Part shown: piece by piece, positions 3,702 to 36,872 of the stretch
How positions within the stretch are numbered: position 1 is the stretch's first letter
Layout of the letters: each line of letters starts with the position of its first letter
Source of the DNA: Acetilactobacillus jinshanensis
GTDB taxonomy: Bacteria; Bacillota; Bacilli; Lactobacillales; Lactobacillaceae
Length of the DNA: 64,000 bases
Reading direction: 5' to 3'
Assembly (NCBI RefSeq): GCF_004359375.1
Contig: NZ_CP034726.1
Span: 248,001 to 312,000 of the forward strand
Notes under the pieces: generated by a model
Seen by the model: the letters and a program-made list of their open reading frames with translations, nothing else
What the model was told of the DNA's origin: nothing
Databases searched by the model: none
Translations under genes and position numbers: made by a program

Positions 3702-3774
3702 GGAGGATTAGCTCAGTTGGGAGAGCATCTGCCTTACAAGCAGGAGGTCATTGGTTCGAGCCCGATATCCTCCA
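3702..3774 (+). tRNA. tRNA-Val(TAC)
   Basis: Acceptor GGAGGAT pairs with ATCCTCC; anticodon loop CTTACAA gives TAC. T-arm GGTTCGAGCCC is present and the discriminator is A. CCA is not encoded. First gene of a nine-tRNA cluster whose order (Val-Lys-Leu-Thr-Gly-Leu-Arg-Pro) matches that often found after 5S rRNA in lactic acid bacteria. Confidence 0.97.
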
Positions 3775-3783
3775 TATTTTTAT

Positions 3784-3856
3784 GAGCCGTTAGCTCAGCT
3801 GGTAGAGCATCTGACTTTTAATCAGAGGGTCAAGGGTTCAAATCCCTTACGGCTCA
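3784..3856 (+). tRNA. tRNA-Lys(TTT)
   Basis: GAGCCGT pairs with ACGGCTC; anticodon loop CTTTTAA gives TTT. Discriminator A, CCA not encoded. Confidence 0.97.
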
Positions 3857-3887
3857 TTAAGTTGAATATGACTTATTGCCATGATAT

Positions 3888-3970
3888 GCAGGCGTGGCGG
3901 AATTGGCAGACGCGCAAGATTTAGGATCTTGTGTCCTCTGGACATATGGGTTCGAGCCCCATCGCCTGCA
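3888..3970 (+). tRNA. tRNA-Leu(TAG)
   Basis: Class II tRNA with a long variable arm. GCAGGCG pairs with CGCCTGC; anticodon stem CAAGA/TCTTG encloses TTTAGGA, giving TAG. Discriminator A, as required for Leu. Confidence 0.97.
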
Positions 3971-3986
3971 TTTATCGAGTCAATAT

Positions 3987-4059
3987 GCCGACTTAGCTCA
4001 GTTGGCAGAGCGCATCATTAGTAATGATGAGGTCAACAGTTCGAATCTGTTAGTCGGCA
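3987..4059 (+). tRNA. tRNA-Thr(AGT)
   Basis: GCCGACT pairs with AGTCGGC; anticodon stem CATCA/TGATG encloses TTAGTAA, giving AGT. Decoding of ACU/ACC would need A34, possibly modified to inosine. Discriminator A. Confidence 0.95.
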
Positions 4060-4067
4060 TAAACAAT

Positions 4068-4139
4068 GCGGAAGTAGTTCAGTGGTAGAACATCACCTTG
4101 CCATGGTGAGGGTCGCGAGTTCGAATCTCGTCTTCCGCT
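4068..4139 (+). tRNA. tRNA-Gly(GCC)
   Basis: GCGGAAG pairs with CTTCCGC; anticodon loop TTGCCAT gives GCC. Discriminator is T, the usual Gly identity base in Gram-positive bacteria. Confidence 0.97.
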
Positions 4140-4166
4140 TTTTGTTTTTATACAATTTCATATTCT

Positions 4167-4252
4167 GCCGGGGTGGCGGAATTGGCAGACGCACGGGATT
4201 TAAAATCCCGCGGACATTTTTGTCCGTATCGGTTCGAGCCCGATCCTCGGCA
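4167..4252 (+). tRNA. tRNA-Leu(TAA)
   Basis: Class II tRNA with a stable variable arm (GGACATTTTTGTCC). GCCGGGG pairs with CCTCGGC including one G-T pair; anticodon loop TTTAAAA gives TAA. Confidence 0.96.
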
Positions 4253-4258
4253 TGTTAT

Positions 4259-4332
4259 GCACCATTAGCGCAACTGGATAGAGCGCTTGATTACGAATCA
4301 AGAGGTTATAGGTTCGAGCCCTATATGGTGCA
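4259..4332 (+). tRNA. tRNA-Arg(ACG)
   Basis: GCACCAT pairs with ATGGTGC; anticodon loop TTACGAA gives ACG. A34 is expected to be edited to inosine by TadA so that CGU, CGC and CGA are read. CGT and CGA are the main Arg codons in this window. Confidence 0.97.
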
Positions 4333-4341
4333 TATATTCTT

Positions 4342-4415
4342 CGGGAAGTAGCTCAGCTTGGTAGAGCGCCTGGTTTGGGACCAGGAGGTCGCAAGTTCGA
4401 ATCTTGTCTTCCCGA
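4342..4415 (+). tRNA. tRNA-Pro(TGG)
   Basis: CGGGAAG pairs with CTTCCCG; anticodon loop TTTGGGA gives TGG. Discriminator A. Confidence 0.97.
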
Positions 4416-4477
4416 TTTTTGTTTAATGTTTTTATTAAGCAAAATGAATGATAAAATACATATAGGTTATAAATTAT

Positions 4478-4551
4478 CGGAAAGTAGCTCAGCTTGGTAG
4501 AGCGCTGCGTTCGGGACGCAGAGGTCGCAAGTTCGAATCTTGTCTTTCCGA
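4478..4551 (+). tRNA. tRNA-Pro(CGG), duplicate of the preceding tRNA-Pro
   Basis: CGGAAAG pairs with CTTTCCG; anticodon loop TTCGGGA gives CGG. The D-arm, variable loop and T-arm are identical to tRNA-Pro(TGG); only the acceptor pair and the anticodon stem-loop differ. It is set apart from the other tRNAs by a 62-base AT-rich spacer. A run of seven Ts follows. Confidence 0.94.
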
Positions 4552-4608
4552 TTTTTTTGTACCTTATGAAGAATATGCAAAATCCTTTTAATGAATTTCC
4601 GGATTTCT

Positions 4609-32947: not shown

Positions 32948-33322
32948 ATGCGTAAATTAAGTCGCACAAGTGATAAGCGACGTGCTTTACTTCGTAATTT
33001 AACGACCCAATTAATCGTTCATGGTCAGATTAAGACCACTGAAGCTAAAGCTAAAGATGTTCGTTCTACCACTGATAAAATGATTACTCTTGGCAAACGC
33101 GGTGATTTAAGCGCTCGTCGTCAAGCAGCTTCATTCTTAGAAAATGTAATTGCTAGTGCTAAAGAAAATGGTGAAAGCATCACCGTTACCACTGCACTCC
33201 AGAAATTATTTGGTAGCTTAGCAAAGAAGTACGCTAAGCGTAATGGTGGATACACTAGAGCATACAAGACCATGCCTCGTCGTGGTGATGGTGCTCCGAT
33301 GGTTATCTTACAGTTAGTATAA
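32948..33322 (+). CDS. rplQ: Ribosomal protein L17
   Basis: 124-residue L17 of the tunnel exit. Conserved [17 protein letters not shown] start and the C-terminal [29 protein letters not shown] precedes the ATG. Last gene of the S10-spc-alpha series. Confidence 0.98.
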
Positions 33323-33323
33323 A

Positions 33324-33398
33324 TCTTAAAAATATTTTTAAGGTTTATTAGTCGTATTTATTAAAACGACATATTTTATCTAATTACCGTTGGTAATT
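33324..33398 (+). other. Row of small hairpins in the rplQ 3' region
   Basis: Three inverted repeats follow rplQ: the 18-base palindrome CTTAAAAATATTTTTAAG (33325-33342), GTCGT/ACGAC with a nine-base loop (33350-33370) and ATTACC/GGTAAT (about 33384-33398). None has a convincing terminator T tract. They may protect the 3' end of the long ribosomal transcript. Confidence 0.45.
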
Positions 33399-33411
33399 GA
33401 ATAATTTCTAA

Positions 33412-33522
33412 AAATCACTAAGGTTTATGATATAGAGCGTTACGATGATGGATGAATATCCAAGTCTAGCTCGAATATGGGTCGGTGACCTATGCATCAT
33501 AAGTCTGTTAGTGATTTTTTTA
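33412..33522 (+). ncRNA. L17 downstream element-like RNA, ending in a T tract
   Basis: A closed multi-stem fold: AAATCACTAA (33412-33421) with TTAGTGATTT (33508-33517) as the outer stem; TTATGAT (33425-33431) with ATCATAA (33496-33502) inside it; then GAGC/GCTC, a GGAT-ATCC hairpin and a GGTC-GACC hairpin. The outer stem is followed by Ts, so it doubles as a terminator. Position directly after rplQ and the host group match the described L17 downstream element (L17DE) RNA of lactic acid bacteria and Listeria. The family match rests on position and fold, not on a covariance search. Confidence 0.72.
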
Positions 33523-33549
33523 TACATAAATTTAAGGTCTGGTTAAATT

Positions 33550-34389
33550 ATGGACAACCCAATACTTCAGTTGCATCATGTAACGTATCATTATCCAGGT
33601 GCTAAGCAATTAGCTGTTAATGACGTAAATTTATCGCTTAATCGTGGTGAATGGCTGACCCTAATTGGCTTAAACGGTAGTGGGAAAAGTACGTTAGTTA
33701 AATTAATTGATGGCTTAGTACCTAAAACTAGTGGCCAAATTGTAGTTGACCATCAGCTATTAACAAGTAAGAGTCTTCTTAAAATTAGACCGAAAATAGG
33801 CGTCGTGTTTCAAAATCCTAAGGATCAATTTGTTGGTGTCACTGTTAAAGATGAGGTTGCGTTTGGCCTAGAAAATCAGCAAGTTGCCCCAGACAAGATA
33901 AAACACGCCGTTCGAAAATCTTTATCATTAGTTGGGATGAGCTCTTACTATGATTCTTTAGTGGATAATTTATCAGGTGGTCAGCAACAGCGAATTGCGA
34001 TTGCCGATGTCATTGTATTAAGGCCTAAAATTATCATTCTTGATGAATGTACCAGTATGTTGGATCCACAGGGTCGAGATCAGATTATCCGTCTAGTTAA
34101 TGCTTTAAAGCATCGTTTTAATTTAACGATTATTGACATTACGCATAATATATCAGAAGCTAAATATGCACAGAAAATCGCTGTAATGAATCATGGAAAG
34201 ATTGTTGCGAGTGGGACGCCAAACGCTATTTTTCAACGCTCTGCATTATTTCATAAACTTCATTTGGGATTACCTCAGCCAGATACTTTACGGGACTTAT
34301 TAAAAAGCCAAGGAATTGATATTCCTAATCAACACTTTAATGAAACGAGGTTATTGTCGTGGCTTCACCAATTATTTTTAAACGGGTGA
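33550..34389 (+). CDS. ecfA1: ECF transporter ATPase EcfA1
   Basis: 279-residue ABC ATPase of the energy-coupling factor module shared by many vitamin-specific S components. Walker A GLNGSGKST near residue 40, Q-loop VFQNPKDQFVG near residue 87, signature LSGGQQQR near residue 143 and Walker B IIILDECTSMLDP near residue 160, with Cys where Ala or Pro is usual. Ends 31 bases inside ecfA2. It starts shortly after the element that closes the ribosomal operon, so some expression may come from read-through. Confidence 0.96.
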   Translation: MDNPILQLHHVTYHYPGAKQLAVNDVNLSLNRGEWLTLIGLNGSGKSTLVKLIDGLVPKTSGQIVVDHQLLTSKSLLKIRPKIGVVFQNPKDQFVGVTVKDEVAFGLENQQVAPDKIKHAVRKSLSLVGMSSYYDSLVDNLSGGQQQRIAIADVIVLRPKIIILDECTSMLDPQGRDQIIRLVNALKHRFNLTIIDITHNISEAKYAQKIAVMNHGKIVASGTPNAIFQRSALFHKLHLGLPQPDTLRDLLKSQGIDIPNQHFNETRLLSWLHQLFLNG

Positions 34390-35234
34390 CATATAAATAT
34401 CCTAGTGATCAGCCTGATATTCAAGGTGGAATATCTGACGTCTCATTTCAAATTAAAGCCGGTTCGTTTGCCATGATTGTCGGTCAAACGGGCAGTGGTA
34501 AATCAACACTGGTTCAGCAGATTAACGGACTATTGCGACCAACCCGTGGTCTTGTCCAAGTTGGATCGATTCGTGTCACTTCTAAAATGAATACTCGTAA
34601 TTTAATTAAACTACGTAAGCAAGTTGGATTGGTTTTCCAAGTTGCCCAGGATCAGTTGTTTGGTGAAACGGTTGAAGATGATTTGGCGTTTGGTCCTCGA
34701 AATTTTGATTTTGATAAAAGCGATGTGCAAAAAGCCGTTAAAACAAGTGCTAATGCGTTAAATTTATCAAAGTTGATGTTGTCTAAATCACCATTTGATC
34801 TATCAGGTGGTCAGATGAAACGGGTAGCGATTGCTGGTGTCATCGCTTGTTTTCCAAAGATTTTAATTCTTGACGAACCAACCGTTGGATTAGATAGCTT
34901 TGAAGAGCATCGAATTATGACGTTGCTATGCAAATTAAAAAAGCAATTTCATTTAACGATTATTATGGTTACACATCAAATGGATTTAGTTGCGAAATAT
35001 GCTACACAAGTTCTGGTACTAAATCATGGTCAATTGGTTGCAAACGTGACGCCTGATAAATTATTTAAGAACGTTGAATTATTACATAAATCAGGGCTTA
35101 AATTACCGTTTGCGCCTAGATTTGCGAATGAATTATCACAATTGGGAATTAAATTAAATGATTTACCATTGGATTTACATCAATTGTCGCGTTTGATCGT
35201 TAACACGTTGAAAATGAGGCGTTACCGTGAATAG
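34359..35234 (+). CDS. ecfA2: ECF transporter ATPase EcfA2
   Basis: 291-residue partner ATPase of EcfA1. Walker A GQTGSGKST near residue 42, Q-loop VFQVAQDQLFGETV near residue 93, signature LSGGQMKRVAIAGV near residue 148 and Walker B LILDEPTVGLD near residue 168. GTG start at 34359 with ACGAGG upstream, inside the end of ecfA1. The overlap suggests coupled translation at equal dosage. Confidence 0.96.
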   Translation: MASPIIFKRVTYKYPSDQPDIQGGISDVSFQIKAGSFAMIVGQTGSGKSTLVQQINGLLRPTRGLVQVGSIRVTSKMNTRNLIKLRKQVGLVFQVAQDQLFGETVEDDLAFGPRNFDFDKSDVQKAVKTSANALNLSKLMLSKSPFDLSGGQMKRVAIAGVIACFPKILILDEPTVGLDSFEEHRIMTLLCKLKKQFHLTIIMVTHQMDLVAKYATQVLVLNHGQLVANVTPDKLFKNVELLHKSGLKLPFAPRFANELSQLGIKLNDLPLDLHQLSRLIVNTLKMRRYRE

Positions 35235-36021
35235 TTTTATCTTTGGTGAGTATATTCCAGGATCATCACCGGTTCACCGAATGAATCCGGCATCCAAATT
35301 ATTATTGTGTGTACTATTTATAATCATGACGTTAATTAGTTCGCATTGGATTGATTATGCAGAATTATCAATATTAATAATAATTAGCTTTGTGATGTGC
35401 CACATCTCGTTCCAAGTAATTTATCGTGGCATTAAGCCCTTGTTATTGATAATTTTATTCACAGCGATACTTCAGTTGTTTTTTGATCCAGCAGGAAAGC
35501 TGATTTGGGGTCTTGGTCCCATAAAAATTACGGAAGGCGGCCTATCAAGCAGTGCATTTGTATTTTGTCGATTTTTATTAATAATATTGATTTCTACGTT
35601 ACTGACGTTATCAACGCCACCCACTAAATTAGCAAACGGGATTCGAGTGATTTTAAATCCTTTTCGGAAGCTTAAATTGCCGGTTGACATAATATCATTA
35701 ATGATTTCAGTTGCATTGCGTTTTATCCCAACGCTGTATAAAGAACTACGGACAATTATTAAAGCTCAGCGTTCAAGAGGGATGATCTTTCGGAGCGGAT
35801 CGTTATCGGATCGTGTAAAAAAAATGGCGATGTTAATTATTCCGCTTCTGTTTAGTTCGTTTGAACAAGCCAGGAAATTAAGTTATGCAATGCTATCAAG
35901 AGGTTACCAAACTAATATTCGTCGAACTCAAATCAATGAATCATCATTTACGAAGTTAGATGGCATTGCGTGGGCCATTTATTTATTTTTTGGTGCCTTG
36001 GAAATAATGAGTAAAGGATAG
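35227..36021 (+). CDS. ecfT: ECF transporter transmembrane subunit EcfT
   Basis: 264-residue membrane coupling protein that links S components to EcfA1/EcfA2. Five to six membrane segments are visible. The two cytoplasmic coupling motifs are AQRSRG near residue 178 and MLSRGY near residue 222. GTG start overlapping ecfA2 by 8 bases. No S-component gene lies in this window, so the module must serve solute-specific proteins encoded elsewhere. Confidence 0.95.
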   Translation: MNSFIFGEYIPGSSPVHRMNPASKLLLCVLFIIMTLISSHWIDYAELSILIIISFVMCHISFQVIYRGIKPLLLIILFTAILQLFFDPAGKLIWGLGPIKITEGGLSSSAFVFCRFLLIILISTLLTLSTPPTKLANGIRVILNPFRKLKLPVDIISLMISVALRFIPTLYKELRTIIKAQRSRGMIFRSGSLSDRVKKMAMLIIPLLFSSFEQARKLSYAMLSRGYQTNIRRTQINESSFTKLDGIAWAIYLFFGALEIMSKG

Positions 36022-36028
36022 TGAATTT

Positions 36029-36847
36029 ATGAGTATTAGATATAAAATAACCTTTGCCTATGACGGGACTCGATTTTACGGCTTTGAGAAGCAACCTGGC
36101 TTGAGAACTGTTGAGGGTACAATTACCGATATTGTTAATACAATGGCTAAAAATCCTCAACCGCCCATTAAAATTTATGGCTCCGGGAGAACCGATGCTG
36201 GGGTTCATGCACTTGCCCAAGTAGCACATTTTGATTTTCCGTTTAACATTCCTGTTGACGGAATGTGGCGAGGCCTTAATAGTATGATGCCCTTGGATAT
36301 TGAAGTTAAAAAGGTCGAAAAGGTTCCGCACACGTTTCATGCCCGATATGACGTGTCTGGTAAAATCTATATGTACCGAGCTTACTTAGGTCACTTTACG
36401 AATCCTTTTAAGCGCTTTTATACGGGGCACTGGCGAATTCCAGTCAACGTGCATAAAATTCAGATTGCACTCAAAGACTTGATTGGCACGCATGATTTTA
36501 CAAGTTTTTGTGCGTCTGGTTCTCAAGTTAAGAATCACGTTAGAATTATATATAACGCAACATGTCATTATGACCATCAAGAAAATGAGTTAATTTTTCA
36601 GTTTTATGGTAATGGCTTCTTATATAACATGGTTCGAATTATCGTTGGTGTCCTTTTGGAGATTGGATCAGGTCGTCGACCCGTCCATGATATTTTAAGG
36701 CTTTATAAGGTTAAGGATCGTAACCAAGCAGTTTTTACGGCACCCGCAAGTGGTCTATACCTAAAGAAAGTTATTTATAAGGGTGAAGATCCAAAACACC
36801 CGACCAAATTCCCTAAGGATACATATAATCAAGACAGACAACATTGA
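36029..36847 (+). CDS. truA: tRNA pseudouridine(38-40) synthase TruA
   Basis: 272-residue TruA, which isomerises U38-U40 in the anticodon stem. The catalytic Asp is in GSGRTDAGVHA near residue 56. The later RMVRxxVGxLLEIGxG region appears as NMVRIIVGVLLEIGSG near residue 205. It is 7 bases after ecfT and in the same operon. The promoter of rplM overlaps its last codons. Confidence 0.97.
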   Translation: MSIRYKITFAYDGTRFYGFEKQPGLRTVEGTITDIVNTMAKNPQPPIKIYGSGRTDAGVHALAQVAHFDFPFNIPVDGMWRGLNSMMPLDIEVKKVEKVPHTFHARYDVSGKIYMYRAYLGHFTNPFKRFYTGHWRIPVNVHKIQIALKDLIGTHDFTSFCASGSQVKNHVRIIYNATCHYDHQENELIFQFYGNGFLYNMVRIIVGVLLEIGSGRRPVHDILRLYKVKDRNQAVFTAPASGLYLKKVIYKGEDPKHPTKFPKDTYNQDRQH

Positions 36848-36872
36848 CTTTATAATAAATAGTTTGTATTAT
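36844..36872 (+). promoter_or_regulatory. Promoter of rplM-rpsI
   Basis: TTGACT at 36844-36849 (overlapping the truA TGA), 17-base spacer and TATTAT at 36867-36872. Confidence 0.82.

Follow-up and report, generated by a model that had tools for sequence, protein, structure and literature searches.

The leaders of ribosomal-protein operons, of which those for L13, L20 and L10 are examples, are structured RNAs that may be bound by protein. The RNA described here resembles them, and the leader predicted for L17, in being a structured and possibly protein-bound RNA of a ribosomal-protein operon. Whereas leaders are found 5' of their operon, this RNA is located 3' of rplQ and is followed by ecfA1-ecfA2-ecfT-truA. 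The L17 leader was predicted in Actino- and Proteobacteria according to the consulted sections of PMC7247131, which also state that L17DE, the L17 downstream element, is confined to Firmicutes and could bind the encoded proteins. In the consulted parts of the original description, Weinberg et al. (2010; PMC2864571) regarded L17DE as a likely 3'-UTR element with possible feedback by L17 and saw no obvious likeness to rRNA. According to excerpts on enterococcal RNA maps the rplQ 3' UTR of ~180 nt contains a predicted L17DE, and one map treats it among 3' UTRs with Rho-independent terminators (PMC7724050); the excerpts of PMC6064168 and PMC7160235 only list it. The excerpts on L17DE make no mention of ecf read-through, and in those from open-licence papers we found no functional test. 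Binding or feedback by L17 is a proposal for L17DE and not what defines the family. A position of ecf next to the alpha operon has been reconstructed for the Bacilli ancestor (excerpt of PMC8046335). New in the present work are the terminator anatomy of the element, a conserved motif behind its U run and L17DE-like cores ahead of ecfA1 in other Bacilli orders.

An L17DE element between rplQ and ecfA1

We analyzed a stretch of 64,000 nucleotides from Acetilactobacillus jinshanensis (the window), to which all coordinates refer. The last gene of the alpha operon, rplQ, encodes ribosomal protein L17 and occupies 32948-33322 on the + strand (NCBIfam TIGR00059, 132.7 bits, cut-off 70.05). The next gene after the element is ecfA1, encoding an ECF transporter ATPase (33550-34389, +; TIGR04520, 317.7 bits, cut-off 315), and it is followed on the same strand by the overlapping ecfA2 (34359-35234; best match TIGR04521, 314.6 bits), ecfT (35227-36021; best match TIGR02454, 91.9 bits) and truA (36029-36847; TIGR00071, 192.2 bits, cut-off 142.85). 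The rplQ, ecfA1 and truA matches are above the NCBIfam cut-offs, and those of ecfA2 and ecfT are below theirs (330 and 111.8 bits). Behind truA, a promoter-like TTGACT-17-TATTAT site was read by eye ahead of rplM (36844-36872), because of which rplM-rpsI are probably independent of any read-through. No L13 leader was found at the Rfam cut-off within the window.

The structure between rplQ and ecfA1 is real and is a member of the L17DE family. The covariance search gave a match to Rfam RF01708 at 33434-33494 (+) with 37.5 bits, narrowly above the gathering score of 37, as the original prediction had supposed from the position. It is the only copy found by the Rfam search in the 1.62-Mb genome. 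In agreement with the described family, the element lies on the same strand as rplQ and directly downstream of it, with hairpin P3 starting 112 nt after the rplQ stop; it has a P3 with the conserved loop letters and a P4, both supported by covariation, and the sense orientation is the more stable one. The taxonomic range stated by Weinberg et al., namely Lactobacillales and Listeria, fits as well, the nearest named rplQ relatives being Lactobacillaceae. Within that family 162 of 301 genomes have an RF01708 match at E≤0.001, covering 31 of 40 genera, and 57 are over the cut-off. Wherever an RF01708 or core-pattern match was found among the matches listed, there was one per genome. A minus-strand match to AfaR (18 bits, cut-off 100) was dismissed as chance.

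Structure and folding of the element

The element of about 110 nt folds as a three-way junction. Its closing stem P1, the outer stem, is formed by 33410-33421 and 33508-33519, of which the 3' arm runs into a U run of seven T at 33515-33521; both arms are conserved in the alignment described below. Inside it the stem P2 (33424-33431 with 33496-33503) is indicated by the fold and by covariation. Hairpin P3 (33435-33472) is seen in the fold and in the Rfam alignment, and consists of P3a (33435-33438/33469-33472), an internal loop of GUUAC (33439-33443) facing UA (33467-33468), P3b (33444-33446/33464-33466) and P3c (33449-33453/33458-33462). It is followed by hairpin P4 (33476-33494), which is variable in sequence with its pairing kept. 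The original prediction of outer and inner stems followed by T residues was borne out, including the distance to ecfA1, with 28 bases between the T run and the ATG at 33550 (predicted as about 27); of the at least three enclosed hairpins that it proposed, only two, P3 and P4, are present.

Folding of 33411-33520 gave -34.2 kcal/mol as compared to -21.35 (sd 3.35) for dinucleotide shuffles, a z score of -3.84 with 1 of 200 shuffles as good. The reverse strand folds less stably (-25.9 kcal/mol), yet it is as distinct from its own shuffles (z -4.28, 0 of 200). P1 is AU-rich, with two G-C pairs among about 12, and it closes 86 nt, because of which its closure should depend on the junction. Downstream of the element we observed a weak hairpin at 33530-33548 (AUUUAA...UUAAAU) with the putative ecfA1 Shine-Dalgarno sequence AAGG near its loop; the related post-U sequences listed show no clear counterpart of it.

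Conservation and covariation

For comparison we used 111 of the 162 RF01708 matches of the family (31 + 80 regions) and 80 named rplQ loci, in total 191 loci of which 178 are distinct. All 191 contain rplQ, including the 111 picked by RF01708 match (L001-L031 and L112-L191). The strict core, defined as a fully paired P3a around GUUAYGAU...GUCUA, is present in 136 of the 178 distinct loci and a relaxed core in 17 more. By our core rules it is absent in the other 25, which are 15 loci of Leuconostoc, Fructobacillus and Convivina type and 10 of Bacillaceae.

A sequence-only MAFFT alignment that was not fitted to the structure (A1) contains 44 of 67 representatives, drawn from 117 of the 136 elements; 19 elements were set aside beforehand as Bacillaceae or over-long, and the other 23 representatives were omitted by our choice. 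In A1, 86.0% of the cells are paired and 26 of the 35 pairs change on both sides, and the covariation score is 0.399, where shuffles gave 0.189 and slid structures no more than 0.137. Every helix, including P1, has pairs with compensatory changes; the missing conservation of pairings in relatives that would have refuted the original prediction was not observed. P3a is paired in 44 of 44 rows and all seven pairs of P4 change on both sides. The outer three pairs of P2 are paired in 57.8% of cells and the inner five in 82.8%. For P1 alone the values are 84.9% of cells and double changes in 5 of 9 pairs; sliding P1 by -1 left the covariation score almost the same (0.175 versus 0.173 in place), but then only 47.7% of the cells pair. 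An earlier measurement of P1 by longest complementarity found stems of 6 bp or more in 123 of 136 elements and in 880 of 1360 shuffles, and since the shuffles also produced long stems the alignment counts were used instead.

A ranking of column pairs by mutual information that used no structure (104 sequences) placed four pairs of the L17DE structure at the top. Of its first 45 column pairs 13 are exact structure pairs, 7 lie within two columns of one and 25 are not structure pairs. From the covariation and mutual-information results we count P1 and the U run as part of the conserved unit. P2 and the post-U motif treated below belong to it as well, whereas the 78-position Rfam model ends at P3 and P4. 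Within the P3 loop, AGUCUA occurs in 118 of 125 loci and GUUAYGAUG in 100 of 125, figures that are somewhat overstated as part of this was imposed by the core rule.

The P3 loop was also compared with rRNA. A search of the 23S and 16S loci of the same genome, flanks included, gave 5 structural hits each, within the range of 30 shuffles, and a 12-letter identity with the 16S locus, ACGATGATGGAT, was judged to be chance. A likeness to an rRNA binding site, as sought in ribosomal-protein leaders, was therefore not found in these loci, although known leaders can lack it too.

Termination and transcription of the ecf genes

The order of P1 and a directly following U run at 33515-33521, at the end of an operon, is that of an intrinsic terminator. 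In contrast to standard terminators the closing stem is AU-rich and encloses an 86-nt three-way junction, and the standard scan for G+C-rich hairpins found no terminator-like site in 33250-33620. Termination at P1 and the seven U is likely, judged from this anatomy. A consensus scan of 33250-33550, which covers the 33340-33550 interval where a separate ecfA1 promoter would lie, found no sigma-70-like site, though weak sites can be missed in this way; the single site detected begins at 33551, within ecfA1. The 28-nt gap leaves little but some room for a promoter.

The element could be a plain intrinsic terminator with decorative structure, with ecfA1 served by a weak promoter that escapes consensus scans. 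The terminator form of P1 and the seven U, the insensitivity of such scans and four loci in which the post-U motif occurs together with a promoter-like site are in keeping with this. Conversely, the P3 loop is conserved far beyond the need of a terminator, even allowing for the overstatement in its counts, and the best promoter score in the gap before ecfA1 was matched by 64.5% of shuffles. We consider this explanation decidedly improbable.

We then compared 142 element-bearing loci outside the Bacillaceae. ecfA1 lies within about 320 nt in 95, further on in 24 and outside the fetched stretch in 23, where it should be noted that some stretches are short (that of L045 ends 101 nt after the U run). 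The element is thus kept in 47 of 142 loci, L045 among them, where ecfA1 is absent or far. With a promoter-like site defined as TGnTAnnnT or TATAAT after the U run, and the post-U motif as (A/G)TACAT, the 95 loci with ecfA1 next divide into 61 with a site and no motif, 23 with the motif and no site, 4 with both and 7 with neither, so that 65 of 95 have a promoter-like site.

In a tree built on the 600 nt up to the rplQ stop, one fork (SH-aLRT 92) that includes the window holds 23 loci, of which 22 are promoterless, the exception being L052. These 22, which include Apilactobacillus xinyiensis and A. ozensis, have a gap of 24-43 nt from the U run to ecfA1. In each of them the U run counts exactly 7 T and the minimum free energy (MFE) fold contains 10 or more pairs within the P1 zone. 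If there is a difference in the P1 duplex, theirs is the stronger one, with a median of -10.9 kcal/mol versus -8.9 for 42 promoter-bearing loci, which were listed by hand out of the 65; whole-element energies do not differ between the two sets (p 0.54). The promoterless state is mainly one evolutionary event, and independent pairs gave two cases for the association, none against and three without a difference. Since no promoter-like site is seen in the gap and P1 and the seven U are intact, we infer that ecfA1-ecfA2-ecfT-truA depend on read-through in the window's group. Read-through would be the likeliest source of ecf transcripts there, and on balance we consider it probable that it takes place.

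As a local statement, the proposal of a terminator that feeds the ecf genes therefore keeps its premises, the conserved pairings and the lack of a promoter-like site. As a general role it does not stand. Because 65 of the 95 loci have their own promoter-like site, 47 of 142 lack a nearby ecfA1 and presumed streptococcal loci mostly have no U run on the element, ecf read-through is not the general job of the L17DE family.

The post-U motif

A conserved motif, ATACATAAAT at 33522-33531 (+), directly follows the U run. In the form TTTTTTRTACATAA it occurs in 27 of 208 loci, representing 22 distinct places, and once in the source genome, at the L17DE element. Letters like (A/G)TACATAAA directly follow the U run in the window, in L259, L260 and L060, and in the 22 loci of the window's group; the motif was also seen in Periweissella loci without ecfA1. 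Its presence is linked to a promoterless ecfA1 (Fisher p 4e-12), a value that is not independent of phylogeny. In L259 and L260 (family f45) the element is followed by six U, ATTACATAAATT and ecfA1, which is the same post-U motif in a second lineage. The motif was considered as a sigma-A promoter or -10 element and rejected on inspection, as no hexamer with A at position 2 and T at position 6 fits.

L17DE-like cores in other Bacilli

A search for the core with the pattern GAGYGTTAYRATG-N14-44-GTCTAGCTC gave matches in 68 of 398 Bacilli genomes and 24 of 146 genera, with one match per genome and none in a backward control among the matches listed. The labels Streptococcaceae (f3), Enterococcaceae-type (L199-L206, f2 and f4) and other Bacilli orders or Bacillales (L211-L240) are presumed from family codes and from likeness to named loci (L055, Enterococcus nangangensis; L103, Ureibacillus; L109, Lysinibacillus; L073-L085, Bacillus/Peribacillus). 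All 30 loci L211-L240, which were taken from these matches and lie outside the window's order, have rplQ upstream and ecfA1 131-411 nt downstream. Together with 7 loci from the rplQ set they form a set of 37 from other Bacilli, in which MFE folds contain P1 in 36, P4 in 35 and P3a in 19 loci, and 7 have a promoter-like site after the U run of the element. The Rfam cut-off was reached in 1 of 20 other-Bacilli loci tested and in 0 of 17 of Bacillaceae type, and with our own model R1 the other-Bacilli loci score marginally or not at all. Because of these weak scores the homology of the cores rests on the core itself, the junction layout and the position. Through a strict first filter R1 found only 13 matches in the 398 genomes of the class. 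A second R1 match in the window (4467-4565; 21.3 bits, E 0.37) lies inside a tRNA cluster and was taken as chance; nine tRNA genes are clustered there on the + strand (3702-4551).

Where the core stands relative to the end of rplQ bears on the proposal of Weinberg et al. (2010) that L17DE is a 3'-UTR feedback element, whose RNA would bind L17 or another protein of the operon and alter the stability or translation of rplQ mRNA, with the ecf genes as bystanders. In 18 presumed Streptococcaceae loci the core begins only 16-17 nt after the rplQ stop, as expected of such an element, and it stays beside rplQ in the 47 loci without a nearby ecfA1; an RNA leader for rplQ is moreover predicted in other phyla in the consulted sections of PMC7247131. 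Against it, the core in other Bacilli orders lies behind rplQ's own hairpin and T run (a T run of 4 or more between rplQ and core in 35 of 37 loci, by script), so that much rplQ mRNA may lack it. The P3 loop has no likeness to the genome's own rRNA loci above shuffles, and 15 of 15 loci of Leuconostoc, Fructobacillus and Convivina type are without a core by our rule. Feedback of this type is possible but doubtful.

In these 15 loci the fold predicts a plain hairpin terminator in 14, and that of the remaining one (L066) can be read in the sequence. As a separate observation, the first terminators after rplQ in the Bacillaceae loci L091, L096, L099, L100, L102, L104, L107, L108 and L110 share stem-loop letters (like GGGCRGGACAGAATCTC...GCCC). 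The conserved-looking Bacillaceae rplQ terminator GGGCRGGACNGRATCTC was tried as a search pattern and dropped, as it occurs exactly in only 2 of 398 Bacilli genomes with 2 also in the backward control.

In many of the loci L211-L240 a conserved TTTATACGACA stands some 25 nt ahead of the core and behind rplQ's own hairpin; counted by eye, 18 nt separate it from the core in most loci and 20 nt in L239 and L240. Such a sequence would suit an independent small RNA with a target elsewhere, which in Lactobacillales would be released from the 3' end of rplQ and in other orders might be transcribed from a promoter of its own. The single match per genome in the lists examined, kept whichever gene is the downstream neighbor, is consistent with this, as may be, in excerpts, SR79100 beside L17 on an array of group A Streptococcus (GAS), with orientation '<' (PMC2765633), and Staphylococcus aureus small RNAs 348 and 380 nt upstream of ecfA (PMC6102330). 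The orientation given for the GAS RNA may also weigh against the terminator reading. On the other hand, TTTATACGACA is not recognizable as a sigma-A promoter and does not keep a constant distance from the core. In 75 of 125 loci P1, with its start estimated as 26 nt before P3, begins within about 30 nt of the rplQ stop, which leaves little promoter room outside rplQ. We regard an independent small RNA as unlikely.

The presumed Streptococcaceae have CACTCATCA after the core in 18 of 18 loci. In 17 there is no close T run of at least 5 behind the core, L242 being the exception, and 14 have such a run at 100-119 nt after the core, which fits a separate terminator hairpin. No ecfA1-like match was found downstream in 17 of the 18, some of these stretches being short, and L243 has one at 115 nt. 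Because these loci keep the core mostly without its own U run, terminator gating cannot be the only role of the core. In L241-L258 and L199-L206 we further noticed that a downstream AACACUC or GCACUC could pair with GAGUGUU on the 5' side of P3, which might let this strand change partners away from P3a. Complementarity of this type scored at least 14 in 18 of 18 presumed Streptococcaceae loci (shuffles 8.6%) and at least 12 in 8 of 8 loci L199-L206 (shuffles 28%), the rows within each group being related and not independent. It was not above shuffles in Lactobacillaceae-type sequences (34 of 125 at a score of at least 12 versus 25%) and not clearly above in other Bacilli orders (19 of 32 versus 47%). 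Mutual information over 104 Lactobacillaceae-type sequences gave no antiterminator or second contiguous helix.

These observations allow a wider interpretation, which we offer tentatively and think improbable as a whole. The element would be a Bacilli-wide junction RNA of the rplQ-ecf interval and not a private element of rplQ. Where no ecf promoter follows, as in the window's group, L259 and L260, and most of the 37 other-Bacilli loci, it would act as a ligand-responsive attenuator of the read-through that reaches the vitamin-transporter genes, with UACAUAAA just behind the U run as its mark where the arrangement is compact. In the presumed streptococcal and enterococcal loci there could instead be a switch in which the 5' strand of P3 pairs either with GCUC or with the downstream AACACUC or GCACUC.

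Proposed mechanism and implications

The explanation that we favor, and hold to be rather probable, is that L17DE in the rplQ 3' UTR provides the terminator of the alpha operon through P1 and the seven U in a junction-dependent manner, with ecfA1-ecfA2-ecfT-truA transcribed by read-through and a ligand at the P3 loop possibly shifting the ratio. As the RNA emerges, P3 and P4 would be the first to fold and would draw the two far-apart arms of P1 towards each other, after which P1 would close over 86 nt beside the U run and cause release of the polymerase. Closure of P1 is, from the anatomy, expected to depend on the junction, and this dependence would offer a control point through the conserved P3 loop. 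As the source species and its close group show no promoter-like site between the terminator and ecfA1, polymerases that read through would most likely transcribe ecfA1-ecfA2-ecfT-truA there, and the element would set the ratio of ecf to ribosomal-protein transcripts. This ratio may be shifted by a factor bound at the internal loop of P3, for which L17 or a different ribosomal protein is conceivable in line with the proposal of Weinberg et al. (2010); such ligand control of termination is only possible and is speculative.

The loci compared here supply natural contrasts, namely promoterless ecf genes behind the terminator, ecf genes with their own promoter-like site, elements with no adjoining ecf genes and copies behind rplQ's own hairpin. 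Each of these predicts different RNA ends, which makes the function testable. Should the read-through prove to be regulated, a single RNA would link the synthesis of ribosomes to the uptake of vitamins.
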